Of a DNA stretch of 64,000 nt, positions 15,067-32,361 are shown piece by piece. The stretch is from Pseudogemmobacter bohemicus. GTDB lineage: Bacteria; Pseudomonadota; Alphaproteobacteria; Rhodobacterales; Rhodobacteraceae. Below the pieces are notes generated by a model. The model was not told the origin of the DNA. It was given only the letters and a program-made list of their open reading frames with translations, and did not search any database. Where the stretch lies: assembly GCF_003290025.1 (NCBI RefSeq), contig NZ_QNHG01000002.1:508941-572940 (forward strand). Reading direction: 5' to 3'. The position numbers were made by a program, and so were the translations under genes. How positions within the stretch are numbered: the first letter of the stretch is position 1; each line of letters starts with the position of its first letter.

Positions 15067-15975
15067 ATGTATGACACAACCGATCCGCGCAGCAAACTCA
15101 CCGGCAAACCGGCTGCAGCCGCGACGGCAGCGGGCGCCGGCTTTGCCGATGCCGATCTCGGCCTGTTCTGCGAGACTGCGCCGCAGATCGAAGCCCCGGG
15201 CACCAGAACCTGGATCACCCGGGGGCAGAATTTCCTCGTCGCCCATAGTGAGACACAGCCCGGCGCCGTGCTTGAGCGCAGCGCCCAGCCCGACGAATAT
15301 GCGCTGATCCTGTTCTCGCCCGACACGCCGGCGATCATCACCGCCGGGGGTGAACGGGCAGAGGTTCCGGGCCATTCGCTGGTCTTCATTCCGCCGGGCG
15401 ACAGCCGGGTCGGTCTGCCCGTGGGTGGCAAGGTTCAGCGGGTTTTCTCCTGCGTTCAGAATGACCTGTCGGCGCTTGCCTCGAATGCCGCATCCTTCGT
15501 GACCCGCAGGCCGCAGATCCCGGCCTGGCAGCCCTGGCCCGCGCCGAAAGACGGCTGGCGCATCCGCAGCTACAGCCTTGATGTGGCGCCGCAGCCGGGG
15601 CGGTTCGGGCGGATCTTTCGCTGCTCGACCCTGATGATCAATATCATCGACCCGCAGGTCGGGCCGCGCGACATCACCCGGCTTTCGCCGCATCACCATG
15701 ACGATTTCGAACAGGGCTCACTGGCGCTGGAGGGCAGCTTCGTCCATCACATGCGCTGGCCCTGGACGGTGAATATGAACGACTGGCGCGAAGACCGGCA
15801 TCCGCTGTGCCATGCGCCCTCGCTGACCGTGATTCCCGCCCCTGCGATCCATACATCGCGCGGGGTCGGTCAGGGCGTGAACCAGCTGATCGACATTTTC
15901 GCGCCACCGCGCGAGGATTTCTCGAATCAGCCCGGTTGGGTGCTGAATGCAGATGACTATCCGATGCCAACCTGA
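15067..15975 (+). CDS. Cupin-domain protein, function unknown
   Basis: This 302-residue protein looks like a bicupin. An N-terminal half contains QPDEYALILFSPDTPAIITAGG and PGHSLVFIPPGDSRV, and a C-terminal half has a histidine-rich metal site LSPHHHDDFEQGSLALEGSFVHHMRWPW. I cannot assign a reaction. The frame opens further upstream but MYDTTDPRSK at 15067 follows the promoter region and gives the sensible start. It is divergent from the TRAP/BKACE operon and followed by the IclR gene. A role in the same pathway, for example as an isomerase or dioxygenase, is inference. Confidence 0.72.
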   Translation: MYDTTDPRSKLTGKPAAAATAAGAGFADADLGLFCETAPQIEAPGTRTWITRGQNFLVAHSETQPGAVLERSAQPDEYALILFSPDTPAIITAGGERAEVPGHSLVFIPPGDSRVGLPVGGKVQRVFSCVQNDLSALASNAASFVTRRPQIPAWQPWPAPKDGWRIRSYSLDVAPQPGRFGRIFRCSTLMINIIDPQVGPRDITRLSPHHHDDFEQGSLALEGSFVHHMRWPWTVNMNDWREDRHPLCHAPSLTVIPAPAIHTSRGVGQGVNQLIDIFAPPREDFSNQPGWVLNADDYPMPT

Positions 15976-18569: not shown

Positions 18570-19325
18570 TCAGCTGAGAACGATCCCGCCATCGACATTC
18601 AGCGTCTGGCCGGTGACAAAAGCGCTGTCATCCGAGCAGAAGAACGCCACCGGCCCCGCCACATCCTCGGGTGCGCCGATGCGGGCCATGGCGGTTTTCG
18701 CCTTCCAGGCATTGCTGATCGCCGGATCGTCCAGGTTCACCCGCCCCATATCGGTCAGGATGATGCCGGGGCAAATGCAATTCGCGGTGATGCCAAGCGG
18801 TCCGACCTCTTGCGCCAGCACGCGGGTAAAGCCCATGACGGCGGCTTTCGAGGCCGAGTAATGCGCCTGTTCCGGCGCGCCATGTTTGCCACCGATGGAC
18901 GAGATGTTGCAGATCCGCCCGTAACCCTGCGCCTTCATCACCGGCAGCAGCGCCTGGATGACAAGGAAGGTGCCCTTGGCATTCACATCCATCACGGAAT
19001 CCCAGTAATCCTCGGGGCAGTGTTCGACATCGGACGCCCGCAGGATGCCCGCATTGTTGACCACCGCATGAACGGTGCCAAGCCGCGCCACGGCATCCGC
19101 CACCATCGCCTGGACCTGCGCCTTGTCCGAGACATCGGCGTAAAGCTCCTCGACCCGGCGGCCCATGGCGCGTGCCTCATCCGCCGTTTCCTTCAGAGCC
19201 GCTCCCTGCGCCTCGATATCATTCAGCGCCAGGTCAAAGCCGCGCGCTGCGAGGCCAAGCGCAATCGCCCGCCCGATGCCCCGACTGGCGCCGGTGACCA
19301 GCGCGATCCTGCCATTTCCGCTCAT
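18570..19325 (-). CDS. SDR-family oxidoreductase (acetoacetyl-CoA reductase/FabG-like)
   Basis: This 251-residue classical short-chain dehydrogenase has the cofactor motif TGASRGIG, NNAG, the catalytic Tyr-Lys in HYSASKAAV and the FabG-like ending GQTLNVDGG. The start at 19325 (MSGNGRIALVTGASRG) is the natural one; the long open frame upstream overlaps the next gene. In acetoin and polyol operons such enzymes oxidise or reduce hydroxyl groups with NAD(P)H. It is the last gene of the ABC/acetoin-dehydrogenase/kinase operon. Substrate is unknown; a secondary alcohol of the imported compound is inferred. Confidence 0.88.
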   Translation of the reverse strand: MSGNGRIALVTGASRGIGRAIALGLAARGFDLALNDIEAQGAALKETADEARAMGRRVEELYADVSDKAQVQAMVADAVARLGTVHAVVNNAGILRASDVEHCPEDYWDSVMDVNAKGTFLVIQALLPVMKAQGYGRICNISSIGGKHGAPEQAHYSASKAAVMGFTRVLAQEVGPLGITANCICPGIILTDMGRVNLDDPAISNAWKAKTAMARIGAPEDVAGPVAFFCSDDSAFVTGQTLNVDGGIVLS

Positions 19326-19339
19326 ATCAATCTTCCCTG

Positions 19340-20089
19340 TCAGAGTGCGGTATAGCCGCCGTCCACGGTCAGGACGGTGCCGGTGATGTAGCTGGCGGCG
19401 TCGGAGGCAAGGAACGCCACCGCCAGCGCGATCTCGCGCGGGGTCGCCAGACGGCCCATCGGAATCCCGGCCAGCCAGGTGTTGAACCATTCGGGTTTTG
19501 ACCGTCCCAGTAGCGTCAGCTCCGTCGCGGTATAGCCCGGCGCCACCGCATTGACGCGAACCTTGCCCGCCCATTCGACGGCCAGAGACTTGGTGATCAT
19601 ATTCACCCCGGCCTTGGCGGCGTTATAGGCGATCTGCGGCTGCGGATGGACGACGATCTCGGCGGCCATCGAGGAGGTGTTGACCACCGCCCCCTTACCC
19701 GCCGCCACCATATGGCGGCCAAAGGCACGGGCGGTGTAGAAGACACCGTTCAGATCGACGTCGATGACCCGCTGCCAGTCGGCAATGTCGATCTCCAGCG
19801 CCGGGCCGTTCTGCACGATGCCGGCATTGTTGACGAGGATCATCGCCGGGCCATGCTCTGCCGCAAGCCGCGCCGCTGCGGCCTCGGCCGCCTCCGGATC
19901 GGTCACGTCGAGCGCCAGCGGAATCGCATCCAGCTCACTCGCCAGCGCATGGGCGGCATCGGGGTTGCGGTCGGCGATGACCACTTTCGCGCCCGCCTCG
20001 GCCAGCACCTCGGAAATCGCCCGGCCAATCCCCGCCGCGCCGCCGGTGACCACAGCCAGCCGGCCCGAGAGATCGAATTCGCGGATCAT
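19340..20089 (-). CDS. SDR-family oxidoreductase (polyol dehydrogenase-like)
   Basis: This 249-residue classical SDR has TGGAAGIG, LVNNAGIVQNGPA, a Ser in NTSSMAAE, the Tyr-Lys in AYNAAKAGVNMITKSLAVEWA and a C-terminal TVDGGYTAL. The acidic residue after the second beta strand (VVIADRNPD) predicts NAD rather than NADP. The start ATG overlaps the kinase stop as ATGA, so translation is probably coupled. Two SDRs side by side with a sugar kinase suggest sequential oxidation of a polyol or deoxy-polyol before cleavage. That is inference. Confidence 0.88.
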   Translation of the reverse strand: MIREFDLSGRLAVVTGGAAGIGRAISEVLAEAGAKVVIADRNPDAAHALASELDAIPLALDVTDPEAAEAAAARLAAEHGPAMILVNNAGIVQNGPALEIDIADWQRVIDVDLNGVFYTARAFGRHMVAAGKGAVVNTSSMAAEIVVHPQPQIAYNAAKAGVNMITKSLAVEWAGKVRVNAVAPGYTATELTLLGRSKPEWFNTWLAGIPMGRLATPREIALAVAFLASDAASYITGTVLTVDGGYTAL

Positions 20090-21576
20090 GCGAGTGCCCC
20101 TTTCAGCGCCGGATAAAGCGCCAGGTAATGTTGATAAAGTTCCGCATAGCGGGCGGTGTTCTTCGGATCCGGCTCGATGCTTTGGCCCGGGCGCACCATG
20201 GCGGCGATCCCCTCGTCAATCGAGGCAAACCGCCCCGCGCCATGCGCCGCCAGCACCGCCGATCCGGTCGAAGGCGCATCGGGCGAGGCCGGGATCCGGA
20301 CCGGCAGCCCGGCAGTATCGGCATGGATCTGCATCCACAGGCGCGAGGCTGTCGCGCCGCCGCCCACGGTAATCTCGGTTGAATTATAGCCGCCCGCTTT
20401 GAACGCATCGAGAATGGCGCGGGTGCCGAACCCGATCCCCTCCATGATGGCGCGGAAGACGTGATGCGGCTCATGCGCCAGCGTCAGCCCCACAATCGCG
20501 CCGCGCGACAGCGGGTCGGTATAGGGGGTGCGGTTGCCCTGGAAATGGTCCTGGACGATCAGCCCGTCAGCGCCGGGCTCCAGCGCTGCCGCCTTCTGGT
20601 TCAGCTCGGTCAGATCGAGATTGCCACCGCAGAACCGCCTGAGCCAGTTGATCACCGACCCGGTCGAGGTCTGGCCGCCCTCGACGATCCAGCGCCCCGG
20701 ATAGACGATATCGGGATAGGCGCCCCAGACGCCCGGCGCATGCAGCGGCGCCTCGGTCACCCCGAATTGCAGATGCGACGACCCGGTGATCAGCGCCAGC
20801 TGACCCGGCTGCGCGACGCCAAGCCCGATCATCCCGATCAGCGCATCGGCGCCGCCCTGCACCACTTTCACCGAGGTTTTCAGCCCAAGTGCATTGGCCG
20901 CCGCCACTGTCAGCGTGCCGACGACCTCGCCCGGAGCCACCACCCGGGAGGGCCATTTCTGCGCCAGATCCTCAAGCCCCAGCGAGGCGAGGATTCCCGT
21001 CGCCCAACCGCCATTGCGGCTGGAATAGTGCCATCTGAGCCCCGCATTATCGAGGCTGGCACAACGCTCGCCGGTCAGGCGCAGCACGAGGAAATCCTGG
21101 TATTCGCAGATCGTCGTCGCGGCGTCATAGACCGCGGGTTCATTGCGCTTCAGCCAGAGCGATTTGGGGATCATCCATTCGGCCGAGACCGGCCCCTGAC
21201 CGGCCCCGTTGATCGCCAGAGCCGCGTCGCCGGTGGCGAGAACCGCATCCGCCTCGGCATGGGCGCGCACATCCATCCACATCAAAGCGGGGCGCAGTGC
21301 GCGGCCATCGCGGTCCAGCGCCACCACGGTGCAGCAGGTGGTGGCAAAGCACATCGCCTCGACCTCGGCGGCGTCGATCCCGGCCTCGGCAATGGCGCCC
21401 GCCGTGGCGGAAACCAGCGCCGCCCACCAGTCTTCCGGATTCTGCTCGGCCCTTGCGCCGGGGGCGAAACGGGTCTCGTAAGCCACCGCCTTCTGGCCGA
21501 GGCACTTGCCCGAAAGATCGTAGATCCGCGCCCTGAGGCTTTCGGTGCCGCCATCGGCGGTCAGGTAATAGCCCAT
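20086..21576 (-). CDS. FGGY-family carbohydrate kinase (ribulokinase/LsrK-like)
   Basis: This 496-residue kinase has the phosphate-1 motif of the sugar-kinase ASKHA fold at its N-terminus (GYYLTADGGTESLRARIYDLSG). It also carries QNPEDWWAAL, the conserved acidic site MWMDVRAHAEAD, GGADALIGMIGLGV and the C-terminal adenosine motif EITVGGGATASRLWMQIHAD. A strong GGGGAGGAAAG ribosome site precedes the ATG at 21576, so the six residues upstream in the frame are not needed. FGGY kinases phosphorylate pentuloses, polyols or, in LsrK, the autoinducer AI-2. The operon also has a ribose-type ABC transporter and a SorC regulator, as in lsr operons, but LsrF and LsrG are absent. Confidence 0.88.
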   Translation of the reverse strand: MGYYLTADGGTESLRARIYDLSGKCLGQKAVAYETRFAPGARAEQNPEDWWAALVSATAGAIAEAGIDAAEVEAMCFATTCCTVVALDRDGRALRPALMWMDVRAHAEADAVLATGDAALAINGAGQGPVSAEWMIPKSLWLKRNEPAVYDAATTICEYQDFLVLRLTGERCASLDNAGLRWHYSSRNGGWATGILASLGLEDLAQKWPSRVVAPGEVVGTLTVAAANALGLKTSVKVVQGGADALIGMIGLGVAQPGQLALITGSSHLQFGVTEAPLHAPGVWGAYPDIVYPGRWIVEGGQTSTGSVINWLRRFCGGNLDLTELNQKAAALEPGADGLIVQDHFQGNRTPYTDPLSRGAIVGLTLAHEPHHVFRAIMEGIGFGTRAILDAFKAGGYNSTEITVGGGATASRLWMQIHADTAGLPVRIPASPDAPSTGSAVLAAHGAGRFASIDEGIAAMVRPGQSIEPDPKNTARYAELYQHYLALYPALKGALA

Positions 21577-21615
21577 CTTTCCTCCCCTTCGCACCGCTCC
21601 CCCGGTGCAATTCCC

Positions 21616-21951
21616 TCAGCTCAGCGCACGAAACGCGTCAAGCGCTTTTGCCGCGTACATGATCGCCGGGCCACCGCCCATTTCGACCGCAACCTCCAGC
21701 GCTTCGACCAGGGCGGCCTCGTCAGCGCCATGCTTTCGCGCGGCATCAAGGTGGTAAAGGATGCAATCCTCGCAGCCTTTCGCCACGGCAACCGCCACCG
21801 CCATCAGCTCTTTCTGCGCCGCCGAGAACTGGCCCGGCGTGGTGGCCTGACGGCTGATCGCGCCGAAGCCCTGCATCAGCGCGGGCGCGGTTTTGGCGAA
21901 GGCCCCAAGCCGGGCCTTTGCCGCCGCGAGTTTCTCTTTCGTCTCAGCCAT
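21616..21951 (-). CDS. AhpD-like carboxymuconolactone decarboxylase-family protein
   Basis: This 111-residue helical protein has the CMD/AhpD signature: a CxxC pair followed by His in KGCEDCILYHLDAARKHGADEAALVEALEVA. Proteins with this pair act as peroxidase-linked thiol oxidoreductases. AhpD works with dihydrolipoamide-bearing E2 partners in mycobacteria. Here it directly follows a lipoyl-domain E2 gene, so an interaction with its lipoyl groups is a reasonable inference. Its start overlaps the end of the E2 gene by 8 bases. A hydrolase-independent role is equally possible. Confidence 0.85.
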   Translation of the reverse strand: MAETKEKLAAAKARLGAFAKTAPALMQGFGAISRQATTPGQFSAAQKELMAVAVAVAKGCEDCILYHLDAARKHGADEAALVEALEVAVEMGGGPAIMYAAKALDAFRALS

Positions 21952-23536
21952 CGCGGCCCCCTTTCAGGATCAGATCGGCCACCTCACGCGGGGCATCCCA
22001 TTGCGGCATATGGCCGGTGGGCAGGAAATGCGCCGCGACCCGGCCGGGCAGGTTCAACGCATCACTGGCGGCAACGATCCGGTCTTCGATACCAAAGACA
22101 GCCGTGACCGGGATTTCACCCGCAAGCTGCGCAAGCGGGCGCAGAATGTCGATCCGCTGCCGGCCCGAAACGGTCGCAAGGCCCTGTGCCAGAGCGATCA
22201 GCCTGCCCTTCGCCATCTCACCCGCCATCTGCGCCAGCACTGCCTCTGACAGCGCGCCGCCATTCGGACCAAGAAGCCGCAAAAGATGCGAGACCTCGCC
22301 CGCAGTTCCGGCCCCGGCCATACCATGCACGAATTCCGCACCGATTTCCGGCCCGCAGCCCGCCGGGGTCAGCAGCACCAGCCGCGCGACCTTTGCGCCA
22401 AGCCGGCCGGCAGCGATCACCGCGACGGCGGCACCAAGGCTGTGGCCCACAAGCGTCAGCCGCCCCGGCAGCGTTCCGGCCAGCCGCGTCACCGCATCGG
22501 CCAGCGCGCCGCTGTCAGGCGCGGCGAGCGTGGTGGCGCCATGACCCGGCAGGTCCGGCACCACGGCAATGTGCCCCGCCCGCGCAATCGCCGCCGTCAG
22601 CTGCGCCCATGCCGAGCGTTCGCCGGCAAAGCCGTGGATCAGCAGGAAGGTCTCGCCGCCCTGGCCGGTCACGCTGTAAACCAGCCGGCCGCCGGGCAGG
22701 TCCAGACCCGCCTCACCGGCGGTGACGGCAAGGGTGACGGTGCCCGCCCTTTCAACATCGGCCCGTTCGATCCGGCCCCGGCGACCGGTGCCGGTCAGAG
22801 CCTCCAGCGCCAGGCCTTTTTGCCGCGCGAGGCGGCGGGCCAGCGGCGTTGCGCGCAGTTTCTCGCCCTCGGCCCGGGTCGTGACGGCAACCACAGGCGC
22901 GGCGGCAACCGGGATGGGCGCGGGCGTTTCCCCGCCGACAAAAGGCTCGACCTCGCCCTCGACCTCGGCGATGGGGGCACCGACCGGAAGCTTCTCGCCC
23001 GGCTGTGCCAGAGCCCGCAGCAGGCGGCCATCGTAAAGCGCCGGCACTTCGGCCACGGTCTTGTCGGTCTCGATCTCAAGGATCGCGTCGCCCCGGGCGT
23101 AAGTGGCACCCTCGGCCACCATCCAGCCGACGATCACCCCCTCCTCCATCGTCTCGCCCAGACGCGGCATGCGAAGGATCGACGGGCCAGCCGTCGCAGC
23201 GGGGAGGGCCGGCACTGGCCCGGTTTCGGGCGCATCGCCCGACAGCTCGGCCCATTCCGCCGCCACTGCAACCGTCGCGCGGGCGATGGGGCTGCCGACC
23301 GCAATCCGGTCGCCCGGGCCTGCCAGCGTCTCGTCGATCACCCCATCGCCAAGCGCGGGGAATTCCACCACGGTCTTATCGGTCTCCAGCTCAAGGATCG
23401 GCTGGCCGCGCCTGAAACGCTCGCCAGGCGCCACCATCCAGCCGACGATCAGCCCCTCTTCCATCGTCTCGCCGAGACGGGGCATCGTGAGGGTCAGGCC
23501 CGTCTCACTGAGGCCCGTCTTACTGAGGCCAGTCAT
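21944..23536 (-). CDS. acoC: Acetoin dehydrogenase E2-type protein: two lipoyl domains, E3-binding domain, alpha/beta hydrolase
   Basis: This 530-residue protein has two lipoyl domains in tandem (lipoyl Lys near 54 in ELETDKTVVEF and near 159 in EIETDKTVAEV). A peripheral-subunit binding domain follows (ATPLARRLARQKGLALEALTGTGRRGRI). The C-terminal part is an alpha/beta hydrolase (LLIHGFAGERSAW; nucleophile VGHSLGAAV; His near TGHMPQWD). AcoC proteins have this fused hydrolase in place of the usual acyltransferase catalytic domain, but most carry one lipoyl domain. Translation is coupled to E1beta by ATGA. The first 17 residues are a tandem repeat (TGLS units) and the second Met (MPRLGETME) could be the ancestral start. 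No E3 gene is nearby, so the housekeeping lipoamide dehydrogenase is presumably used. Confidence 0.87.
   Translation of the reverse strand: MTGLSKTGLSETGLTLTMPRLGETMEEGLIVGWMVAPGERFRRGQPILELETDKTVVEFPALGDGVIDETLAGPGDRIAVGSPIARATVAVAAEWAELSGDAPETGPVPALPAATAGPSILRMPRLGETMEEGVIVGWMVAEGATYARGDAILEIETDKTVAEVPALYDGRLLRALAQPGEKLPVGAPIAEVEGEVEPFVGGETPAPIPVAAAPVVAVTTRAEGEKLRATPLARRLARQKGLALEALTGTGRRGRIERADVERAGTVTLAVTAGEAGLDLPGGRLVYSVTGQGGETFLLIHGFAGERSAWAQLTAAIARAGHIAVVPDLPGHGATTLAAPDSGALADAVTRLAGTLPGRLTLVGHSLGAAVAVIAAGRLGAKVARLVLLTPAGCGPEIGAEFVHGMAGAGTAGEVSHLLRLLGPNGGALSEAVLAQMAGEMAKGRLIALAQGLATVSGRQRIDILRPLAQLAGEIPVTAVFGIEDRIVAASDALNLPGRVAAHFLPTGHMPQWDAPREVADLILKGGRDG
23492..23533. repeat. Three-copy ~15-bp tandem repeat at the 5' end of acoC
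   Basis: The unit ACTGAGGCCCGTCTT (as read on the plus strand) occurs about three times with small changes. On the coding strand it gives the N-terminal residues TGLSKTGLSETGL. The repeat lies between the ATGA start and the conserved lipoyl-domain Met. It looks like recent slippage that lengthened the N-terminus. Confidence 0.7.
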
Positions 23537-24525
23537 GCCGGCACCTTCCCGAGCATTTTCAGCCCGGTCTCATAGATCAGCTGTGCGCCCGGCACCGAAC
23601 CGGTTTCCAGCGCGGTTGAGACGGAGATCGGGATATCCTCACCCGCGACCCGCACAACCGGGTCTTCGAGATAGTCGAAGCATTCCTCGGTGATCCGGGC
23701 CGACAACTCGGCGGCGACACCGGCGGTCATCACGCCTTCGGACACCACCATCGCGCGGCCGATGCGGCTGACCGCCTCGCGGATCGGGTCGAAGTCCAGC
23801 GGGTTCAGGGTGCGCAGGTCGATCACCGTCGCCTCGATCCCCTGAGCCGCCAGTTTCTTCGCGGCCTCCAGCGCATAGTGCAGCTGGCGAGAATAGGTGA
23901 CGATCACCAGATCCTTGCCCTCGCGCCGCACGGCCGAGGTGCCCCAGGGCAGGGCGGGGGCGTCCAGATCGACCGTCTCCTTCATCGTATAGAGCGCCTT
24001 GTGCTCGATGAAGACGACCGGATCGGGCTTGGTCAGCGCCTGGCGCAACAGGTGGTAGGCATCGGCCACGGTCGCGGGCATGGCCAGACGCAGGCCGGGG
24101 GTGTGCATCACATAGGCCTCAAGGCTCTGGCTGTGCTGGGCTCCAGCCGAGCGACCGGTGCCGCCCTGTGTGCGCAGAACCATCGGCACACCGATCTGGC
24201 CGCCGAACATATAGCGGATCTTCGCGGCCTGGTTGCCCAGCTGGTCCATCGTCATGCCGATGAAATCGACATACATCAGTTCCGCCACCGGGCGCAGACC
24301 GGCCATCGCGGCGCCAACGGCGGCCCCGATGATCGCGGGTTCGGAAATCGGGGTGTCGATCACCCGCTCGCCGCCGAATTCCTTGATCAGATCCTTGGTC
24401 ACGGCATAGGCGCCGCCGTAACGGCCGACCTCTTCGCCCATGATCACCACATCGGGGTTTTCGCGCATCGCGTCGATCAGCGCCTGGCGCAGGGCGTCGC
24501 GGTAGGTAAGTTCCTGGAGTGCCAT
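23533..24525 (-). CDS. acoB: Acetoin/2-oxoacid dehydrogenase E1 beta subunit
   Basis: This 330-residue protein starts LTYRDALRQALIDAMRENPDVVIMGEEVGRYGGAYAVTKDL, the classic transketolase-like E1beta opening. It continues with DTPISEPAIIGAAVGAAMAGLRPVAELMYVDF and TQGGTGRSAGAQHSQSLEAY. It pairs with the adjacent E1alpha to form the thiamine-diphosphate decarboxylase/dehydrogenase unit. Pyruvate dehydrogenase beta subunits look similar. The E2 partner with a fused alpha/beta hydrolase indicates the acetoin dehydrogenase branch, which cleaves an alpha-hydroxyketone to acetyl-CoA and an aldehyde. Confidence 0.9.
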   Translation of the reverse strand: MALQELTYRDALRQALIDAMRENPDVVIMGEEVGRYGGAYAVTKDLIKEFGGERVIDTPISEPAIIGAAVGAAMAGLRPVAELMYVDFIGMTMDQLGNQAAKIRYMFGGQIGVPMVLRTQGGTGRSAGAQHSQSLEAYVMHTPGLRLAMPATVADAYHLLRQALTKPDPVVFIEHKALYTMKETVDLDAPALPWGTSAVRREGKDLVIVTYSRQLHYALEAAKKLAAQGIEATVIDLRTLNPLDFDPIREAVSRIGRAMVVSEGVMTAGVAAELSARITEECFDYLEDPVVRVAGEDIPISVSTALETGSVPGAQLIYETGLKMLGKVPA

Positions 24526-24537
24526 CGTATATTCTCC

Positions 24538-25584
24538 TCAGTCCCGGGCCAGAACGCGGTCGATGCGGGTGCGCACCGGCTCGGGCTCGGGCTCTTCGGG
24601 GGCATAGACATCGCGGAACATGGTCGAGAGCGGCGGCTCTTTCTGCGCGATGGTGAAGTCGATGGTCGCATCCATCTCGGCGCCGACCTCGGTTTCCAGC
24701 GCGGTCAGCTCGGCCTCGGTCGCAAGGCCGCGTTCCAGGAGAGCGGCGCGGGCGAAGGCGACCGGGTCCTTCTGGCGACCCTGTTCCTCTTCCGCCGGGT
24801 CGCGGTAGGGGGATTTGTCTTTGCGGGCATGGCCGTAGAAGCGGTAGCAGTCGATCATCAGGAAGGCGGGTTTGCCCTGGCGGACGCCCGCGACCAGGCG
24901 GTCGGCGGCTTCGGAAACCGCCTCGACATCCAGCCCGTCCACCCGTTCGCCCACCAGCCCGAAGGCCCGGGCGCGTTCGTGGATCTCCGGGTTGGCGGTG
25001 GCCTGGTCGATCCTTGTGCCCATGCCATACTGGTTGTTGATGCAGACGAAGAGGCAGGGCAGGCTCCAGAGGGCCGCCATGTTCATGCTCTCATACAGGA
25101 TGCCCTGGCCGGTGGCGCCGTCGCCGAAGAACGCGGCCGAGATCTTGCCGCTGCCATGGTGCCGCGCCGCAAGCCCCGCGCCGACCACTGCCGGGATGCC
25201 GCCGCCGACAATGGCGTTCGCACCCAGATGCCCCAGCCCCATATCGGCGATATGCATCGAGCCGCCTTTACCGTGGCAGTAGCCCGCCTCTTTACCGCCG
25301 ATTTCCGCCATCATCCGGTTCGGATCGGCGCCGCGGGCGAGAAAGATGCCGTGGCCGCGGTGATGGGTGGTGAAAGTGTCGCCCTCGACCATCGCGGCGC
25401 AGACACCGGCGGCGGCGCTTTCCTCGCCGATCGAAAGGTGCAGCATCGAGCCTGCCGACTGGCCGCGCACAAAGAGCTCGCCCACCCGTTCCTCAAAGGT
25501 GCGGATGCGCAGCATCATGCGGTAATGGCTGGTCAGATCCGTATTCGGCCTGGGCGCCGGCGTGTGAGCCACGGGCTTGGTCAT
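24538..25584 (-). CDS. acoA: Acetoin/2-oxoacid dehydrogenase E1 alpha subunit
   Basis: This 348-residue protein has the thiamine-diphosphate motif GDGATGQGILYESMNMAALW followed by CINNQYGMGTRI, the GDG-x(~28)-NN pattern. It also has HHRGHGIFLARGADPNRMMAEI with the active-site His pair and YRFYGHARKD. Length and order match AcoA or PdhA. It lies 12 bases upstream of E1beta. Its own start is close behind the ABC permease gene, so uptake and cleavage are on one transcript. Which alpha-hydroxyketone or 2-oxoacid it uses cannot be told from sequence. Confidence 0.9.
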   Translation of the reverse strand: MTKPVAHTPAPRPNTDLTSHYRMMLRIRTFEERVGELFVRGQSAGSMLHLSIGEESAAAGVCAAMVEGDTFTTHHRGHGIFLARGADPNRMMAEIGGKEAGYCHGKGGSMHIADMGLGHLGANAIVGGGIPAVVGAGLAARHHGSGKISAAFFGDGATGQGILYESMNMAALWSLPCLFVCINNQYGMGTRIDQATANPEIHERARAFGLVGERVDGLDVEAVSEAADRLVAGVRQGKPAFLMIDCYRFYGHARKDKSPYRDPAEEEQGRQKDPVAFARAALLERGLATEAELTALETEVGAEMDATIDFTIAQKEPPLSTMFRDVYAPEEPEPEPVRTRIDRVLARD

Positions 25585-25600
25585 CGCCTTATTCCAATCT

Positions 25601-26587
25601 TTACAGGAGGTTGAGTTTCGTGCTGCGCGAGACGACCGCGACCGCGACGAGAATGATGGCGCCCTTCACGATGGACTGGATATAGGTGTCCATTCCCATC
25701 AGGTTGAGGCCGTTATTGATGATCCCGATGAAGAGCGCCCCGAAGAAGGTGCCCAGAACCGTGGCCGTACCCGGGCGCAGCATGGTCATGCCGATGAAGA
25801 CCGTGGCCAGACCATCCAGCAGGTAACGTTCACCCGCATTGGGCTGGCCCGATCCCAGCCGTGCCGCCAGCAGCATCCCCGCCACGACGGCGAAAAGCGA
25901 GCAGACGACCAGCGAGGCGGCGCGGTAGCGGCGCACCTGGACGCCCGAAAGTTCCGCCGCTTTCTGGTTGCCGCCGACGGCATAGATGTAGCGGCCAAAA
26001 ATGGTGCGCTCCATCACGAACCAGGCCACAGCCACCGCGCCCAGCATGAACCAGGCCAGCACCGGAATGCCCAGAAGCCGCCCCTGGCCCAGCCAGAGAT
26101 AGCTGTCGGGCAGCCCGCCATAGATCGCGCGCCCGCCGGTCATCAGGAAGTTGATCCCGAACAGGATCGAGCCCGCCGCCAGCGTCGCGATCAGAGACGG
26201 AATACCGATCACGGTGACGAAAAACGCATTGCAAAGCCCGACCAGAAGCCCCGCCCCAAGCCCCGCCAGCAGCGCAAGCGGCAAAGGCGTGCCGCCGACC
26301 AGCAACAGGGGCACCAGCACCCCCGCCAGCCCCACGGTAAAGCCCACCGAGAGATCCATCTCACGCGCGGCAAAGCCAAAGGTCAGCCCGGCGCCCACGA
26401 TGGTCAGCATGGAAATCTGCTGCGCGATGTTCATCACATTCTGCGAAGTCAGAAAGCGGCCAACAAACAGGCTGAAGCCCAGCACCATCAGAGCCAGCAC
26501 CACCAGGGTCGAATAACGCTGGATGTGATCCTTGCGGACAAGGCCGAAAACCCGGTCGATCTGCGGGGAGGTGGCGATCTCGCTCAT
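25601..26587 (-). CDS. Ribose-type ABC transporter permease (RbsC/BPD_transp_2 family)
   Basis: This 328-residue inner-membrane protein has ~9-10 hydrophobic segments and the family blocks GLTFGFAAREMDLSVGFTVGLAGV, GLCNAFFVTVIGIPSLIATLAAGSILFG and RYIYAVGGNQKAAELSGVQVRRYR. The last of these contains the EAA-like loop contacting the ATPase. Its start overlaps the ATPase stop as ATGA. One permease gene is present, so the channel is presumably a homodimer, as in RbsC systems. Confidence 0.93.
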   Translation of the reverse strand: MSEIATSPQIDRVFGLVRKDHIQRYSTLVVLALMVLGFSLFVGRFLTSQNVMNIAQQISMLTIVGAGLTFGFAAREMDLSVGFTVGLAGVLVPLLLVGGTPLPLALLAGLGAGLLVGLCNAFFVTVIGIPSLIATLAAGSILFGINFLMTGGRAIYGGLPDSYLWLGQGRLLGIPVLAWFMLGAVAVAWFVMERTIFGRYIYAVGGNQKAAELSGVQVRRYRAASLVVCSLFAVVAGMLLAARLGSGQPNAGERYLLDGLATVFIGMTMLRPGTATVLGTFFGALFIGIINNGLNLMGMDTYIQSIVKGAIILVAVAVVSRSTKLNLL

Positions 26588-28092
26588 GCTGCGGTTCCTG
26601 ACATGGCGGCGATGAAAATGGCCTCGGAGAACCGCTCCTGCGGGATTTCCGGGCCGGGCCGCTGATTGGCAAAGGGGATGACGCGATGCGCCACGGATTC
26701 GATTTCAAGAAGGTCGGAAGAGGCGATGATGATCCCGACCCCTGTGGCCGCAAGGCGGCGCATCTCGGCATAGATCTCGGTCTTGGCGCCGATATCGACG
26801 CCCTCGGTCGGCTCGATGAAGATCATCACCCGGTAGCGCTCACCCGCGCCATAAAGCCATTTCCCGATCGAGATCTTCTGTTTATTGCCGCCAGACAGCT
26901 CTTTCAGCAGCTGACCAGAGCTGTGGGCTTTGACATTCATCAGCCGCATGACGCGGCCCGCCTCTGCCTCTTCGCGCCGGGGCGACAGGATGCCGGCACC
27001 GATGCTGCCCTGTTCGGGATGCACCATTGCGAGGTTCTCGCGCAGCGTCCATTCGCCGATCAGCGCATATTCCATCCGGTGATCGGGGACGAGCGCCACC
27101 CCCGCCGCCTGCATCTGCGCCGGGCGCCCCGGAGCGATGGCCTTCCCCGCCACCTCCATCCGTGCAGCGCGGGCACCGGCCGAATTGTGCAGCGAGCGGG
27201 CAAAGCCGAAATGGCCGGCGCCGGTCAGCCCGATCAGCCCTACGATCTCACCGGCGCGCAGGGTGAAGTCCGGCACCTCGACCGCGCCGACATGCCAGCC
27301 TCGCAGCATCAGCACCACCGGACCCTGCGCCTCGCTCGCGGTGGTTTTGGCCTTGAGCGCGGCACCGCCGGTGCGGCGCAGCATCAGCTCGACCAGCTTT
27401 TCCTCGCTGAGGCTGGCGGCGGGTTCGGTGCAGATGTGGCGCCCGTCGCGCAACACGGTGATCGTGTCGGACAGGGCTTTGATTTCCGAGAGGAAATGGC
27501 TGATCAGCACCACACCGACACCGCGTTTCGGCAGGCTGCGGATGATCTGCCAGAGCTGTTCTTTCTCGCGCGCGGGCAGCGTCGCGGTCGGCTCGTCGAG
27601 GATGACGATTTTTGGGTTGCCGCGCAGCGCCCGCACGATCTCGATCACCTTGCGCTCGGCCATCGGCAGATCGCCCACCGGGCGCGACAGGTCGATGGAA
27701 ACGCGGGGAAACCATTCGCGCAGCAGATCCGCCGCCTGCCGGCGCAGTGCCCGGGTGCGGATCAGCGCACCGCCGAGGCGCGGCTCGTGACCCAGCAGGA
27801 TATTCTCGGCCCCGGTCAGGCCCGAGACCAGATTGCCCTCCTGACTGACATGGGCGATGCCATGGGTCAGCGCCCCATGCGGCGAGCCAAGCCGCACCGG
27901 CCGCCCGCCAATCACCACCTGGCCGGTCGTCGGCGTCAGGCTGCCGCCCAGCACATTCACCAGCGTCGATTTACCAGCGCCGTTCTCGCCGATCAGCCCA
28001 TGCACCTCGTCATCCCGGAAGGTGACACTGACGCCATCCAGCGCGCGGGTGCCGGGAAACTGCATCACGATATCGGTAAGCCGGATATCCAT
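26584..28092 (-). CDS. Ribose-type ABC transporter ATP-binding protein (two fused NBDs)
   Basis: This 502-residue ATPase has two nucleotide-binding domains like RbsA. The first has a Walker A GENGAGKSTLVNVLGG and a Walker B IVILDEPTATLP. The second has a degenerate Walker A (GLTGAGHFGFARSL), the signature LSGGNKQKISIGKWL and Walker B MIFIEPTEGVD, in which the usual Asp before Glu-Pro is Ile. A degenerate second half is normal in this family. It lies between the binding-protein gene, across a 140-base gap with a strong hairpin, and the permease gene. Confidence 0.93.
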   Translation of the reverse strand: MDIRLTDIVMQFPGTRALDGVSVTFRDDEVHGLIGENGAGKSTLVNVLGGSLTPTTGQVVIGGRPVRLGSPHGALTHGIAHVSQEGNLVSGLTGAENILLGHEPRLGGALIRTRALRRQAADLLREWFPRVSIDLSRPVGDLPMAERKVIEIVRALRGNPKIVILDEPTATLPAREKEQLWQIIRSLPKRGVGVVLISHFLSEIKALSDTITVLRDGRHICTEPAASLSEEKLVELMLRRTGGAALKAKTTASEAQGPVVLMLRGWHVGAVEVPDFTLRAGEIVGLIGLTGAGHFGFARSLHNSAGARAARMEVAGKAIAPGRPAQMQAAGVALVPDHRMEYALIGEWTLRENLAMVHPEQGSIGAGILSPRREEAEAGRVMRLMNVKAHSSGQLLKELSGGNKQKISIGKWLYGAGERYRVMIFIEPTEGVDIGAKTEIYAEMRRLAATGVGIIIASSDLLEIESVAHRVIPFANQRPGPEIPQERFSEAIFIAAMSGTAA

Positions 28093-28139
28093 TCGGTGAC
28101 CTTCGATGACAGGGGTTGCGGACGGGGAGAAAGCCGGAC

Positions 28140-28182
28140 GGGGCCGCGCGGGCGGAGGGGAGTGCCCCGCCCGCGCGGCCCC
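28140..28182. terminator. Perfect 15-bp stem-loop between binding-protein and ATPase genes
   Basis: The arms GGGGCCGCGCGGGCG (28140-28154) and its exact reverse complement (28168-28182) enclose a 13-base loop. There is no T-tract on either strand. In ABC operons a hairpin here usually protects the binding-protein mRNA and lowers downstream expression. It may therefore be an attenuating or stabilising structure rather than a full terminator. Confidence 0.65.
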
Positions 28183-28230
28183 GATACAGTCTCAGATCAG
28201 GGGATGACCCGGATCAGAGGAGGTTCGTGA

Positions 28231-29178
28231 TCACAGGAAGTCCTGGCAGTTCTTCTTGGTGATCAGCGGCGCGTCGAGATAGACGATTTCCGAAGGGATC
28301 ACCTCGGCAGCGGGCTTGCCTTCGACCACGATGGCGTCGATCCATGCCGCGACCTGGGCGCCCATCTCTTCAAAGGGCTGGGCCACGGTGGCAATCAGCT
28401 GGCTGTCGGGTTTGCAGACCTCGGCAATCGCTGCCGGGTGGCCGTCAATGCCGATCACCTTCACATCGGTCAGACCAGCCGCGTTCAGCGAGTTGACCAC
28501 CGCCTGGGCAGGTTCATCCCAGGGCGCCCAGACCGCGTCGATATCGGTGCCGAAGCGCGCCGCAAAGTCTTCCATCGTGCGGGCGGTATCCTCGAAGAAG
28601 GCGGTGTAGTTGATGTTATGCTCGGCCAGCACCTTCACGCCGGGATATTCCTTCAGCACCACCTCCATCACATCGCCGCGTTTGCGGGTGCCGTGATGCT
28701 CGGCCATGCGGAAGAATACCAGATTGCCTTCGCCCTTCAGCTGGTCGAGCAAATAGACCGAGACATCCGAAGACATCGCCCAGTTATTCGTCGTCACATC
28801 GACCACAACGCCGTCGACAAAACCGGAATCCACGGCGAAAACCGGGATATTGGCGGCTTTGGCAGCATCCAGCGCCGCGCGGCTGGCGCGCAGATCGGCC
28901 ATGGTCACCACGATGGCGTCAACGCCGCGATTGGCCGCGTCCTGGATATTGGTCGCCGTTGCCTCGCCCGAGCCGCCGCTGTCGAGATAGCTGACATTCC
29001 AGTCCGACTTGCCATTCTCGGCGATCCAGGCCTCGAACCCGGCTTTGGTGCGCTGATCCGACTGCGCGGCGGCGTTCGAATTCACCATCACGATGTCCAG
29101 CGCCTGCGCCGCAGTGGCACCGGCAAGCAACGCTGCGACAGAGCAAACGAATCCGATACCGGAAATCCGGTTTTTCAT
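28231..29178 (-). CDS. Ribose-type ABC transporter periplasmic sugar-binding protein
   Basis: This 315-residue protein begins with a signal peptide (MKNRISGIGFVCSVAALLAGATAAQA, cut before LDIVMVNSN). It has the periplasmic-binding-protein type 1 fold of RbsB: SNAAAQSDQRTKAGFEAWIAEN, DAANRGVDAIVVTMADLRASRAALDAAKAANIPVFAVDSG and the hinge WAPWDEPAQAVVNSLNAAGL. The start at 29178 sits behind a GGAGGATTTG site; the upstream frame is not needed. It is the first gene of the operon and binds the imported compound, probably a sugar or polyol. Two tail cysteines (EVCKPDS and KKNCQDFL) are present. Confidence 0.92.
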   Translation of the reverse strand: MKNRISGIGFVCSVAALLAGATAAQALDIVMVNSNAAAQSDQRTKAGFEAWIAENGKSDWNVSYLDSGGSGEATATNIQDAANRGVDAIVVTMADLRASRAALDAAKAANIPVFAVDSGFVDGVVVDVTTNNWAMSSDVSVYLLDQLKGEGNLVFFRMAEHHGTRKRGDVMEVVLKEYPGVKVLAEHNINYTAFFEDTARTMEDFAARFGTDIDAVWAPWDEPAQAVVNSLNAAGLTDVKVIGIDGHPAAIAEVCKPDSQLIATVAQPFEEMGAQVAAWIDAIVVEGKPAAEVIPSEIVYLDAPLITKKNCQDFL

Positions 29179-29282
29179 ATGCAAATCCTCCCTGAGCCAG
29201 ATAACCCGGGGCAACCTGGTGCCGGGCGGGTTTCTGGTTTTCCACGCCGGTCCTCTTCCGGCAGGTTAAGCCTGAGCCAGTC

Positions 29283-29315
29283 GATTACAGTTGTCAATAC
29301 GGATTACATTTGTCA
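29283..29315. promoter_or_regulatory. Tandem operator candidate for the SorC-family regulator
   Basis: GATTACAGTTGTCA (29283-29296) and GATTACATTTGTCA (29302-29315) form a 13/14 identical direct repeat with a 19-base period. The repeat lies in the 166-base gap between the binding-protein operon and the regulator gene. Read on the minus strand, the first copy contains a consensus TTGACA (29297-29292) suitable as a -35 for the operon. A direct repeat covering the -35 is a plausible regulator site. Confidence 0.5.
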
Positions 29316-29344
29316 CGATGCAAGAATGAGGCGGAGGAATGAGA

Positions 29345-30340
29345 ATGGCGGCTGCAATGGTGGAAACGCCGGAAGATGAAGTGCTTATGGCGCGGGCGGC
29401 CTGGCTTTATTACATCGGCGGCCTGAACCAGGAGGCGACGGCAAAGCGGCTGAACACCACCCGCGCCCGGGTCAACAAACTCTTGTCAGATGCCCGCGAC
29501 GCAGGCCTTGTGAGCATCACGATCAACCCGGCCAATGTCGGATTGCTGCCGGTGGAGGAGCTGATTCGCACCCGATACGGGCTGGATTTCTGCATCTGCA
29601 CCCCGGCGCTTGGCCCGGAAAAGGGCGATGAGACCGACCGCATCCTCGCGCCTTTCGCCTTCCGCGCAGTCGGTGCTGCCGCCGCCGCTCATCTGCGTCG
29701 CCACCTGGCCGAAGAGCCGCGGGCGGTGATCGGCACCGGCTGGGGGCGCACGCTGGAGCAGATGACGCTGCAAATGGCAGGCGTCACCGCGCCGGGTGCG
29801 CGCTTCATCAGCCTGATGGGCTCTCTGACCGCGAATTCGGCCTGGAACCCGTTCGAGGTGGTGCAGTCGCTGGCGCGCAGCACAAGGGGCGAGGGCTATT
29901 TCCTGCCCGTCCCCTTCATCGCCGACACGCCCGAAGCGCGTTCGGTGCTTGTCTCGCAGCAATCGGTGCAGGACGCGCTGGATCTGGGTCGTCGCGCGAC
30001 GATGGCCTATATTTCCCTTGGCGAGCTGCGCGAGGATTGTCTTTTGCGCCGCCAGGGCATGATCACCGGCGACGAACTGGCCGAGCTGCGCTCCAGGGGG
30101 GCGGTCGGCGACACCAATGGACTCTTCTTCGATGCGGCGGGACGGGGGGTGGACCATCCGCTCAATCACCGCACCATCGGGCTGGGGCTGGAAGATCTGC
30201 GCCAGATCCCGACCGTGGCCCTGGTGGCCGGACGCGCCAAACTCGAAGCCGCGCGGGGATTTCTGGCAAGCGGCATCGTCAGCGGCCTGATCATCGACGG
30301 CGACACCGCGCTGGAACTGGCCGGAAGCGCCCCCGCCTGA
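29345..30340 (+). CDS. SorC/DeoR-type sugar-responsive transcriptional regulator
   Basis: This 331-residue regulator has an N-terminal helix-turn-helix (GGLNQEATAKRLNTTRARVNKLLSDARDAGLV) and a long sugar-phosphate-binding domain of the SorC family (GTGWGRTLEQM; SLMGSLTANSAWNPFEVVQSLARST; FIADTPEARSVLVSQ; DTNGLFFDAAGRGVDHPLN). GGAGGA lies six bases before the ATG at 29345; the ATG at 29339 is too close to it. SorC regulators, including LsrR, usually sense the phosphorylated substrate made by the operon kinase. Here that would be the product of the FGGY kinase. It is divergent from the ABC/acetoin-dehydrogenase operon it probably controls. Confidence 0.88.
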   Translation: MAAAMVETPEDEVLMARAAWLYYIGGLNQEATAKRLNTTRARVNKLLSDARDAGLVSITINPANVGLLPVEELIRTRYGLDFCICTPALGPEKGDETDRILAPFAFRAVGAAAAAHLRRHLAEEPRAVIGTGWGRTLEQMTLQMAGVTAPGARFISLMGSLTANSAWNPFEVVQSLARSTRGEGYFLPVPFIADTPEARSVLVSQQSVQDALDLGRRATMAYISLGELREDCLLRRQGMITGDELAELRSRGAVGDTNGLFFDAAGRGVDHPLNHRTIGLGLEDLRQIPTVALVAGRAKLEAARGFLASGIVSGLIIDGDTALELAGSAPA

Positions 30341-30681: not shown

Positions 30682-32361
30682 TCAGGCCTCCTGCCCGCCC
30701 TTCACGCGCAGGATATCCTCGGGCAGACCAATTACCCGCAGCAGAAGCGAAGGACGGCTCAGCGCGACATAGATCAGCTCATCCTCAAGCAGCTGGTCTA
30801 TATCGACCAATACCACGCATTTCGCCTCAAGCCCTTTGAAACGTCGCACCGTGTCGCACCAGATCCGGGTCTTGCCCCTGGGATCAGAGGCCGAAACCGG
30901 CACCGCCCCGCCGATCTGCGCCTGAGAAAAGAGGATGCATCTATCGCGGGCGCCGCCGGTCAGGATGGCGATATCCGAGGCCTGGAGCTGCGCCGTTTTT
31001 GTCAGATCGGCGACAAAGACACTGGCATTATTATAGGCCTGCTCTCTGGATCTGACTTCAATCCAGTCCACCGGCTGCCCCGCCGGCCCGGCCGAAAGCG
31101 CGCCCCGCGCATCATACCAGGGTTTGAGGCTGCGGTGAATGGCACGGGTGTTGCGCAGATTGCGGATCAGGCGGAATGACAGTTTCGGCAATTCATCGGC
31201 AAAACCCTGACCGCCGCCGTAAATCCGCTGATTATCATCATAAAAGACGTGGAATATGCTGGTATCCAGGTCTTTCAGTGACAGCCGCAGCGCATCATAC
31301 CAGGGGCGTTCAAAGTCCTGGCCCTCGTCGATGATGATCGCGTCAAAGGCCAGACCGGGGCGCTGCTGCATCGCCTGTTCAAGCGCTCCGGGCAGAACGC
31401 GGCTGTAAAACGCCGGGTCCTGAACATTGTCGAGCGGCACTTTCGCCAGATGCGCCACCTTGCCGCAAAACTCGTGAAACCCGGCAATGGTCAGGTTCTT
31501 CACCTCGCCCACCAGGCCCTTGAGATGGGCCGCCAGCGCGGTGTTGAAGCAGGTCAGCAGACTGCGCTGGCCGTCTCTGGTGCAGCGCATCGCTTTTTCC
31601 AGCGCCAGCAGGGTCTTGCCGGTGCCCGCGGCGCCCGCAATCGCCATTTGCGGATTGCCGGCCAGCGAGTCCAGCACATAGGCCTGTTCGGCGGTCAGGA
31701 ACCCGATCTTCTTCATGTCATGCGCCAGCGCGCTTGCCAGATGGGGGCGCAATTCGAATTCTGCCGCGATGATCTCATGCAGCGCCCGCATCCCCTCCGG
31801 GCCAGGCGCATCGCAGGCGGCCGCCCCGCGCGAAAGGGTCTCACGCACCCAATCGCCCAGCCGGCCCGCGCCGATCTCATTGCTAAAGGCGAACAGCTCC
31901 AGCGGGGCATCGGCCCCAAGCGGGCGTATGGGGCGGATATTGTCGGGCAAAACGACGCCATGGCAGAGGTTGAGCTGACGGCGCTCCAGGCCCGAGACCT
32001 TCTTCAGCCGGTTGCGCAGCTCATATTTGCCCTCCATCGCCTGGGTGATGGGGCTGCGTTTCAGGTTATAGGGCGTGCCGCTGTGGGACTCCGAAACCCA
32101 TTGGCCCTGATCGTCGCAAGAGACCGTGCCGCCCTTCACTTCCAGCGCCAGAATGCCCAGGGTCGGATGGGCGATGATGAAATCCACCTCGCCGTCGCGG
32201 CCGGTGCCATCGGGGCGGAAGCGATGCCAGGGGCGCGACCAGTAAACCGTAAAATCGCCCCCCAATTCCCGGTCAAGCGAGTCATAAACCTGCCGCTCGG
32301 CCTGGCGCTTTGGATCACTCACCAACAGATCCGGAATCGCGGATGGAACCATTTTAGCCAT
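30682..32361 (-). CDS. NERD-domain UvrD-like superfamily 1 helicase/ATPase
   Basis: This 559-residue protein has an N-terminal nuclease-related domain (NERD: DGEVDFIIAHPTLGILALEVKGG near residues 56-80, a restriction-endonuclease-like E-V-D...E-V-K pattern). A UvrD/Rep-type helicase core follows, with Walker A GAAGTGKTLLALEKA near 245, Walker B IIIDEGQDFERPWYDAL, motif RLIRNLRNTRAIH, motif V DTVRRFKGLEAKCVVLVD and motif VI LIYVALSRP. Its start overlaps by eight bases the stop of a DrmB-like reading frame, so the two formed an operon. DNA unwinding linked to defence is the likely role, inferred from that partner. The helicase frame itself appears intact. Confidence 0.87.
   Translation of the reverse strand: MAKMVPSAIPDLLVSDPKRQAERQVYDSLDRELGGDFTVYWSRPWHRFRPDGTGRDGEVDFIIAHPTLGILALEVKGGTVSCDDQGQWVSESHSGTPYNLKRSPITQAMEGKYELRNRLKKVSGLERRQLNLCHGVVLPDNIRPIRPLGADAPLELFAFSNEIGAGRLGDWVRETLSRGAAACDAPGPEGMRALHEIIAAEFELRPHLASALAHDMKKIGFLTAEQAYVLDSLAGNPQMAIAGAAGTGKTLLALEKAMRCTRDGQRSLLTCFNTALAAHLKGLVGEVKNLTIAGFHEFCGKVAHLAKVPLDNVQDPAFYSRVLPGALEQAMQQRPGLAFDAIIIDEGQDFERPWYDALRLSLKDLDTSIFHVFYDDNQRIYGGGQGFADELPKLSFRLIRNLRNTRAIHRSLKPWYDARGALSAGPAGQPVDWIEVRSREQAYNNASVFVADLTKTAQLQASDIAILTGGARDRCILFSQAQIGGAVPVSASDPRGKTRIWCDTVRRFKGLEAKCVVLVDIDQLLEDELIYVALSRPSLLLRVIGLPEDILRVKGGQEA

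Follow-up and report, generated by a model that had tools for sequence, protein, structure and literature searches.

An alphaproteobacterial operon with a sugar importer, an FGGY kinase, and an acetoin-dehydrogenase-type complex: a possible route of deoxy-sugar catabolism

Acetoin and 2,3-butanediol (aco) operons are among the described systems closest to the operon reported here, and that of Paracoccus pantotrophus (locus L149) includes acoX, E1alpha, E1beta, AcoC, a short-chain dehydrogenase/reductase (SDR), a CMD protein, and butanediol dehydrogenase. In a 64,000-nucleotide stretch of the Pseudogemmobacter bohemicus genome (contig NZ_QNHG01000002.1, positions 508,941 to 572,940; hereafter the window) lies an operon that likewise groups E1alpha, E1beta, an AcoC-type E2, SDRs, and a CMD protein. 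It differs in coding for an ABC transporter, an FGGY carbohydrate kinase, and a divergent SorC-family regulator, whereas the aco operon has acoX, AcoR (sigma-54), and butanediol dehydrogenase. Neither acoX nor AcoR was found in the window operon; a NAD-kinase-like acoX and a sigma-54 regulator are present in L149, L153, and L165. Judged by the gene content of L149, the window gene set resembles that of a butanediol operon to which a sugar importer, a kinase, and a SorC regulator have been joined. We conclude that the operon is real, that it is widely conserved in many alphaproteobacteria, and that it has a coherent function, which we tentatively read as the catabolism of a C5 sugar or polyol with a terminal methyl group (1-deoxy) by way of a phosphate, followed by cleavage by a thiamine diphosphate/lipoyl complex.

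Several other systems share parts of this gene set. Operons linked to DXR-II, a deoxyxylulose-phosphate reductoisomerase (e.g., that of S. meliloti Rm41 plasmid pRM41A, L159) have a SorC regulator, E1alpha, E1beta, a lipoyl E2, and a basic E1alpha loop residue in common with it, and the putative operator core ACAAATGT is upstream in several of them; they differ in having DXR-II instead of SDRs, phosphotransferase (PTS) or CUT1 transport nearby, and, in L159, Lpd and LipA, and an FGGY kinase, within the stretches seen, occurs only in a Priestia cluster. The dihydroxyacetone phosphate (DHAP) shunt (MtnK-MtnA-Ald2) also concerns methyl-ended C5 sugars and is near or within some relatives of the operon, but it uses an aldolase, yielding DHAP and acetaldehyde or methylthioacetaldehyde, and no thiamine diphosphate complex, as described in PMC10986504. 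The lsr operons of autoinducer-2 (AI-2) uptake have a SorC-type regulator, a CUT2 importer, and an FGGY kinase, whereas the window operon lacks LsrF/LsrG, has one permease, and gives scores that favor other subfamilies. DXS is a single biosynthetic protein that uses pyruvate and, as proposed here for the window complex, is a thiamine enzyme acting on C2-C3 of a 1-deoxy-pentulose 5-phosphate; the window complex consists of E1alpha, E1beta, and a lipoyl E2, and would act in the catabolic direction. Searches of an open-access library listed no paper whose title or opening abstract lines describe the operon or DXR-II beside E1/E2 genes.

The operon is on the minus strand (18570-29178) and is transcribed in the order RbsB-type binding protein, CUT2 ATPase, CUT2 permease, E1alpha, E1beta, E2, CMD protein, FGGY kinase, SDR1, and SDR2, with the SorC gene on the opposite strand (29339-30340). 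Most of its genes overlap or are spaced by a few tens of bases, with a 138-base gap 3' of the binding-protein gene. The original prediction of a ten-gene operon under a SorC-type regulator holds, all of the named genes being found by Pfam, although its listing omitted the CMD gene. Several starts in the open reading frame list look too long when set against annotated orthologues and the signal peptide, and 19325 (SDR2), 21576 (kinase), and 29178 (binding protein) look likelier.

We analyzed 87 related loci chosen by E1alpha, of which 7 are on plasmids and 80 on genome contigs, the latter being the best 80 of 422 relatives in a scan of the species-genome collection. Some are duplicates (e.g., L024/L037 and L029/L112 are the same regions), such that the counts are not independent. 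E1beta and E2 are near E1alpha in all of the 76 loci with at least 5.2 kb downstream, and a kinase of at least 50% identity is near in 74; the exceptions are L074, which holds a 43% piece, and L100, in which none was found. The 53 complete type A loci, those with the window layout, all have the SorC and ATPase genes, and 52 have the kinase, 50 SDR2, 47 CMD, and 44 SDR1. The linkage of E1beta, E2, and kinase across related loci shows that the gene arrangement is not due to chance. The plasmid regions were drawn from nine records with 60 to 80% E1alpha identity (7 regions analyzed); in a wider plasmid search the other 308 records are below 60%, the best being 48.7% among the 60 of 317 listed. 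These seven regions share the window gene order except in L018, which has one SDR and an IS element, L019, in which the far end is missing at the end of the record, and L021 (S. meliloti Ak57), in which the E2 gene is annotated as two pieces (13985-15303) and the operon may thus be inactive. E1alpha is present at E <= 1e-100 in 10 of 292 sampled genomes of the order, including that of P. bohemicus itself, and no viral contig matched the operon pattern.

Genes around the E1-E2-kinase core are exchanged among these loci. In type B loci a D-tagatose/psicose 3-epimerase-like protein replaces the SDRs (the epimerase is near E1alpha in 16/87 loci) and DhaK/DhaL are present (DhaK is near in 17/87), often with an aldo/keto reductase. 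Other variants have a kinase-first layout (L030 to L032), a beta-hydroxyacid dehydrogenase (L028, and L029/L112, which are from a single contig), or an aminotransferase-type protein (L069 and L100), and L099 keeps E1-E2-CMD-kinase-SDRs at 45 to 80% identity and the transporter at 36 to 44% only. In the E1alpha tree, these layout labels are intermixed within one 38-row clade (100/100), label A needing five changes and label B four, with at least three each by starred branches; the B label of L107 was taken from the neighboring stretch L115. From these patterns we infer that various uptake and oxidation modules feed a single kinase/E1-E2 reaction, and because the modules swap around a near-constant core, the kinase product is probably the substrate of the complex. 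The kinase (20086..21576; PF00370/PF02782, FGGY_N/C), which was predicted to trap an intermediate, does belong to the core and would probably act before cleavage, so that the product would be a sugar phosphate and not the free aldose first envisaged.

The E1alpha protein (24538..25584, minus strand as for all genes of the operon; PF00676, E1_dh, 226 bits) was placed in a tree of 54 of the 107 extracted sequences, leaving out that of L161, which is truncated by the locus edge; L163 is a duplicate of L154, and L024 to L029 repeat other entries. It falls in a clade of its own (100/100), with pyruvate dehydrogenase (PDH; 2 rows, 100/100), aco-type (5 rows, 99/97), and DXR-II-linked (6 rows) proteins each on a supported separate branch, so that the aco E1alpha sits in another supported clade; the tree leaves the deep branching order loose, and some branches are long. 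Grouping with a housekeeping PDH, which the original prediction had named as an outcome that would count against it, is ruled out by this tree, the PDH rows standing apart at 100/100, and the window E1alpha is 41% identical to the PDH E1alpha of its own genome. We compared the loop that bears the PDH phosphorylation site. The residue after its conserved Asp is Lys in 90/90 window-type rows and Arg in 6/6 DXR-II-linked rows, and is non-basic in 5/5 aco and 2/2 PDH rows; this basic residue could bind a substrate phosphate.

E1beta (23533..24525) has PF02779/PF02780 (Transket_pyr/C) domains, and the E2 (21944..23536) combines a pair of lipoyl domains (Biotin_lipoyl) with an E3-binding (E3_binding) and an alpha/beta-hydrolase domain, with lipoyl sites ETDK from residues 51 and 156 and a GHSLG motif. 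The whole E2 protein passes the AcoC cut-off (NF011457, 372.9 bits versus 307), with a single-stretch genome search scoring 298.7, below it. No E3 gene is within the operon, and two lipoamide dehydrogenases score above cut-off elsewhere in the genome (5.6 Mb, 16 contigs). The CMD/AhpD-like protein (21616..21951; PF02627, 69 bits) has the motif E-x11-C-x2-C-x3-H, which is kept in 54/54 CMD matches of at least 40% identity. AhpD of M. tuberculosis has the same motif spacing and is reduced through a lipoyl E2, and by analogy the window protein probably serves the lipoyl arm as an AhpD-like thiol redox partner. A CMD/AhpD-like gene is also inside the acetoin/butanediol operon of L149 (8436-8765, 44% identity to the window CMD), which suggests that CMD proteins are linked to lipoyl E2 complexes.

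In a second group, seen in rhizobia, Terrarubrum, and Pseudoroseomonas, SorC-linked E1/E2 genes follow a gene for DXR-II or a DXR-II-like protein; in Aminobacter the order is DXR-II-E1-E2, and the stretch seen includes no SorC gene. The Rhizobium K15/93 protein matches structures 3upl/3upy (titled 'Oxidoreductase'; E = 6e-216), presumably Brucella DXR-II, as well as PF21135 (DRL_cat, 229 bits), and is 55 to 57% identical to the Terrarubrum and Pseudoroseomonas proteins, 44% to that of Priestia, and 40% to that of Listeria. A Priestia plasmid codes for E1alpha-E1beta-E2-LpdA, SorC, MFS, SorC, a DXR-II-like protein, and an FGGY kinase; its E1alpha is annotated as PDH and is outside the E1alpha tree, and its kinase is 42.8% identical to the window kinase over 495 amino acids (410 bits, blastp), the best solved kinase structure scoring 190.8 bits (phmmer). 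DXR-II makes methylerythritol phosphate (MEP), and by a term search the text of the DXR-II paper mentions neither pyruvate dehydrogenase nor acetoin, and neither genomic context nor catabolism. In L150, L154/L163, L159, L160, and L162 a DXR-II or DXR-II-like gene is directly upstream of E1/E2, often with SorC and in two cases with a glucitol-type PTS, and we regard these loci as candidate methylerythritol catabolic operons.

Taken together, the DXR-II links, the Priestia kinase, the basic loop residue, co-occurrence with the 5-deoxypentose salvage protein MtnA, and chemical precedents point to a 1-deoxy-pentulose phosphate as the substrate of the complex. One such precedent is that E. coli PDH E1 mutants form 1-deoxyxylulose 5-phosphate (DXP) in vivo, as stated in PMC3424233. 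In the proposed pathway, the CUT2 system would import a methyl-terminated C5 sugar or polyol, which one or both SDRs would oxidize, and perhaps epimerize, to a 1-deoxy-pentulose, and the FGGY kinase would form the 1-deoxy-pentulose 5-phosphate (DXP or a stereoisomer). E1alpha/E1beta with thiamine diphosphate would then attack the C2 ketone and cut between C2 and C3, transferring the acetyl unit onto the lipoyl arm of E2 (AcoC type) for release as acetyl-CoA, with glyceraldehyde-3-phosphate as the other product. A housekeeping E3 would reoxidize the lipoyl arm, for which CMD would be a thiol redox partner, and SorC, a family that senses sugar phosphates, would respond to a phosphorylated intermediate and control the operon through the ACAAATGT operators. 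The analysis shows which genes are present, that they are conserved, that the E1alpha clade stands apart, that modules are exchanged, and that an operator-like motif is conserved; substrate, products, the kinase-then-complex order, effector, and CMD role are all predictions from sequence. The proposed E1/E2 reaction would chemically be an oxidative reverse of DXS and a sugar-phosphate counterpart of acetoin dehydrogenase. Much of the route first predicted, a 1-deoxy-ketose or deoxy-polyol passing through an SDR and a kinase to thiamine-dependent cleavage and acetyl-CoA, gains indirect support from the AcoC-type E2 and the non-PDH E1alpha; the free aldose product is what we would drop from it.

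More broadly, the SorC-linked E1/E2 complexes might be a new class of sugar-phosphate dehydrogenases that convert 1-deoxy-pentulose 5-phosphates to acetyl-CoA and glyceraldehyde-3-phosphate, fed by deoxy-sugars or polyols through the kinase and elsewhere by methylerythritol phosphate through a reversed DXR-II; this wider proposal is doubtful. If it is true, many alphaproteobacteria reuse acetoin-dehydrogenase-type complexes as sugar-phosphate-cleaving enzymes, and 1-deoxy-xylulose-type sugars, methylerythritol, and 5-deoxypentoses, which are released by plants, isoprene chemistry, and S-adenosylmethionine (SAM) enzymes, have a carbon-catabolic fate, a new bacterial way to feed on deoxy-sugars. 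DXR-II would have a catabolic role beside the biosynthetic DXR, and its reversal would explain the second reductoisomerase of some bacteria with a complete MEP pathway.

Several observations weigh against a 1-deoxy-pentulose phosphate, and the substrate evidence is indirect throughout. The window and DXR-II-linked E1alpha clades are not reliably sisters (79/56, with long branches), and the loop residue is Ala in the SorC-linked E1alpha of C. difficile. DXR-II is present in no window-type locus and not in the P. bohemicus genome, and in only 2/385 sampled genomes of the class, and the DXR-II-like proteins, at 40 to 57% identity, may belong to DXR-II or to the uncharacterized DLO families. The DhaK/DhaL and aldo/keto reductase genes of type B loci have no explanation under this pathway. 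The genomes behind the MtnA association are related and its 50-kb limit was set post hoc, the mtn cluster of P. bohemicus itself has a separate transketolase-like enzyme and no operator (at up to two mismatches), and the operator motif is common to SorC proteins that are only 25 to 30% identical, for which reason the word may characterize a subfamily of SorC regulators and not a shared regulon.

The source of the sugar could be narrower than we propose. In one version, 5-deoxypentoses from SAM by-products are the substrates, with 5-deoxyribose or its polyol imported, converted to the 1-deoxy-pentulose 5-phosphate, and cleaved in the same way, nearby DHAP-shunt genes forming a parallel branch. 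MtnA is present in 8/10 core-positive versus 62/282 core-negative genomes (Fisher p = 2.3e-4; not found in core-positive G154 and G287) and is within 50 kb of the core in four of the eight (binomial 1.6e-5, the 50-kb limit having been set after seeing the data). MtnK or MtnA matches are also inside the stretches of L046, L055, L101, and L110, differently placed, and just outside the stretches of L053 and L063. Those of L046 score above cut-off for MtnK and for MtnA, whereas the L055 match is a 124-amino-acid piece at a contig end with no Pfam match. In R. rubrum a RuBisCO-like protein converts methylthioribulose-1-phosphate to 1-methylthioxylulose-5-phosphate, from which DXP arises, according to PMC4958253, and P. 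bohemicus has an MtnW-like protein near mtnKA. The window operon itself has no mtn gene, however, and stereochemical reasoning indicates that reduced 5-deoxyribose would give an L-series ketose, and we consider this version unlikely. An ordinary ketose could instead undergo the same steps, a pentulose 5-phosphate giving glycolyl-CoA and glyceraldehyde-3-phosphate in an oxidative, CoA-linked phosphoketolase reaction, and sequence does not distinguish CH3 from CH2OH at C1. The kinase scores best to XylB/ribulokinase models and the binding protein is ribose-like, but the AcoC-type E2 and the likeness to a butanediol operon favor acetyl transfer, and the neighbors are deoxypentose genes (MtnK/MtnA), with DXP in other SorC-linked systems; we regard an ordinary ketose as unlikely.

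The complex might also act on its own account, as a plain acetoin/2,3-butanediol complex or a spare PDH that is in a pyruvate-yielding sugar operon by chance or convenience. E1beta does pass the PRK09212 PDH-beta subfamily cut-off (351.4 versus 321), and the best model for E1alpha is a PDH one (TIGR03182), at 321.1 bits below its cut-off of 393.85. Set against these scores are the E1alpha clade, apart from PDH and aco rows, the kinase linkage in 74/76 loci while transporters vary, and the lack of acoX, AcoR, and E3 in the operon, which make this a poor prospect. A resemblance to lsr operons had also been suggested, with AI-2 (DPD) taken up and degraded and the thiamine complex in place of LsrF/LsrG. 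In its favor are the shared SorC, CUT2, and FGGY layout and the matches, below cut-off, of type B binding proteins to models of RhaS and LsrB. But the window kinase scores 299.8 bits to XylB (itself below the cut-off of 380) against 170.3 to LsrK (cut-off 528), the regulator 161.3 to DeoR(Bac) against 103.3 to LsrR, the window binding protein has no LsrB match at E <= 0.001, and there is a single permease, not two. These family scores do not support the lsr likeness for the window operon, and AI-2 degradation is highly improbable. The 1-deoxy-pentulose phosphate pathway continues to be the one we tentatively favor.

The regulator (29339..30340, plus strand) scores 184 bits to PF04198 (Sugar-bind) and, as its best NCBIfam model, to DeoR(Bac), below the cut-off of 420. 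Two putative SorC operators with the core ACAAATGT on the minus strand, TGACAAATGTAATC (29302..29315) and TGACAACTGTAATC (29283..29296), are predicted from motif counts and a genome pattern search. The core is present in 60/64 type A divergent regions between SorC and the binding protein (96 sites, with a background of 0.059 per kb over all loci), in 8/13 regions in which SorC faces a divergent E1alpha or kinase gene, and in 2/16 type B regions, in counts drawn from loci that are related and in a few cases are the same locus twice. A different repeated word, CAATGCAC, is present in 15/16 type B regions. The pattern TGACAANTGTAATC, with up to one mismatch, has only two matches in the genome, both at the window sites, and a regulon search of the P. 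bohemicus genome found no operator sites beyond these two. In L150, L159, L163, L164, and L161, ACAAATGT precedes the gene for DXR-II or a DXR-II-like protein; it is absent from the scanned stretches of L160, L162, L168, L157, and L158, and is present in the mtnK divergent promoter of L114.

The importer has the features of a CUT2 system, with an RbsB fold, a fused double ATPase, and a BPD_transp_2 permease. The binding protein (28231..29178) has a signal peptide and a PF13407 (Peripla_BP_4) domain, the ATPase (26584..28092) has two PF00005 (ABC_tran) stretches and scores best in NCBIfam to AraG (369 bits, below cut-off), and the permease (25601..26587; PF02653, BPD_transp_2) scores 205.8 bits to the ribose permease model, also below cut-off. 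All sugar-transporter equivalogs in NCBIfam, ribose included, are below cut-off for the importer; kinase and binding protein exceed no kinase or transporter equivalog cut-off in these profiles, so that NCBIfam does not recognize a known system for ribitol or xylitol here. As modeled (pLDDT 85.9), the binding protein has a ribose-binding-protein fold, with 3l49 and 4wt7, ribose-binding proteins, as top Foldseek matches. Ligands named in the titles of its Foldseek neighbors are ribose, 5-methylthioribose, arabinose, glucose/galactose, fructose, and myo-inositol, and a ligand call from the structure was dropped since the neighbors bind too many different sugars. The binding-protein alignment (A3) includes 20 of 22 loci, excluding L104 (a stop near the match start) and L038. 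SDR1 (19340..20089) and SDR2 (18570..19325, its start corrected by annotated orthologue lengths) both match PF13561 and, in the Pfam scan, adh_short.

Other loci carry related gene sets of their own. About 5 to 18 kb past the window end in P. bohemicus (L169, 6157-18599) are mtnK-mtnA with a CUT2 importer and a SorC gene, together with a split transketolase (its second half giving a DXS score that is below cut-off), an MtnW-like RuBisCO-like protein, and an aldolase/SDR fusion; this is possibly a second deoxypentose route. A RuBisCO-like protein of this type is present in 5/10 core-positive genomes, a figure given without a background rate. The type B epimerase of L053 (9124-9975) closely matches the D-tagatose 3-epimerase structures 7dz2/7dz5 (E = 4e-143), and its operon context raises the possibility of a deoxy-ketose as natural substrate; structures of D-tagatose 3-epimerase with deoxy sugars have been published, going by a title cited in PMC8167858. 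A Listeria plasmid record (L164, 6790-11602) has SorC, a DXR-II-like SAF protein, GutM, and a glucitol-type PTS, with ACAAATGT sites upstream and no E1/E2 within the stretch seen. On a Clostridioides difficile plasmid (L155, 3489-9409), SorC-E1alpha-E1beta-E2-LpdA is beside a GH43 gene and an MFS transporter, and its E1alpha has a long branch and groups with those linked to DXR-II (95/84). Beside the operon in the window (30682-32361) is a gene for a protein with nuclease-related (NERD) and UvrD-like helicase domains.

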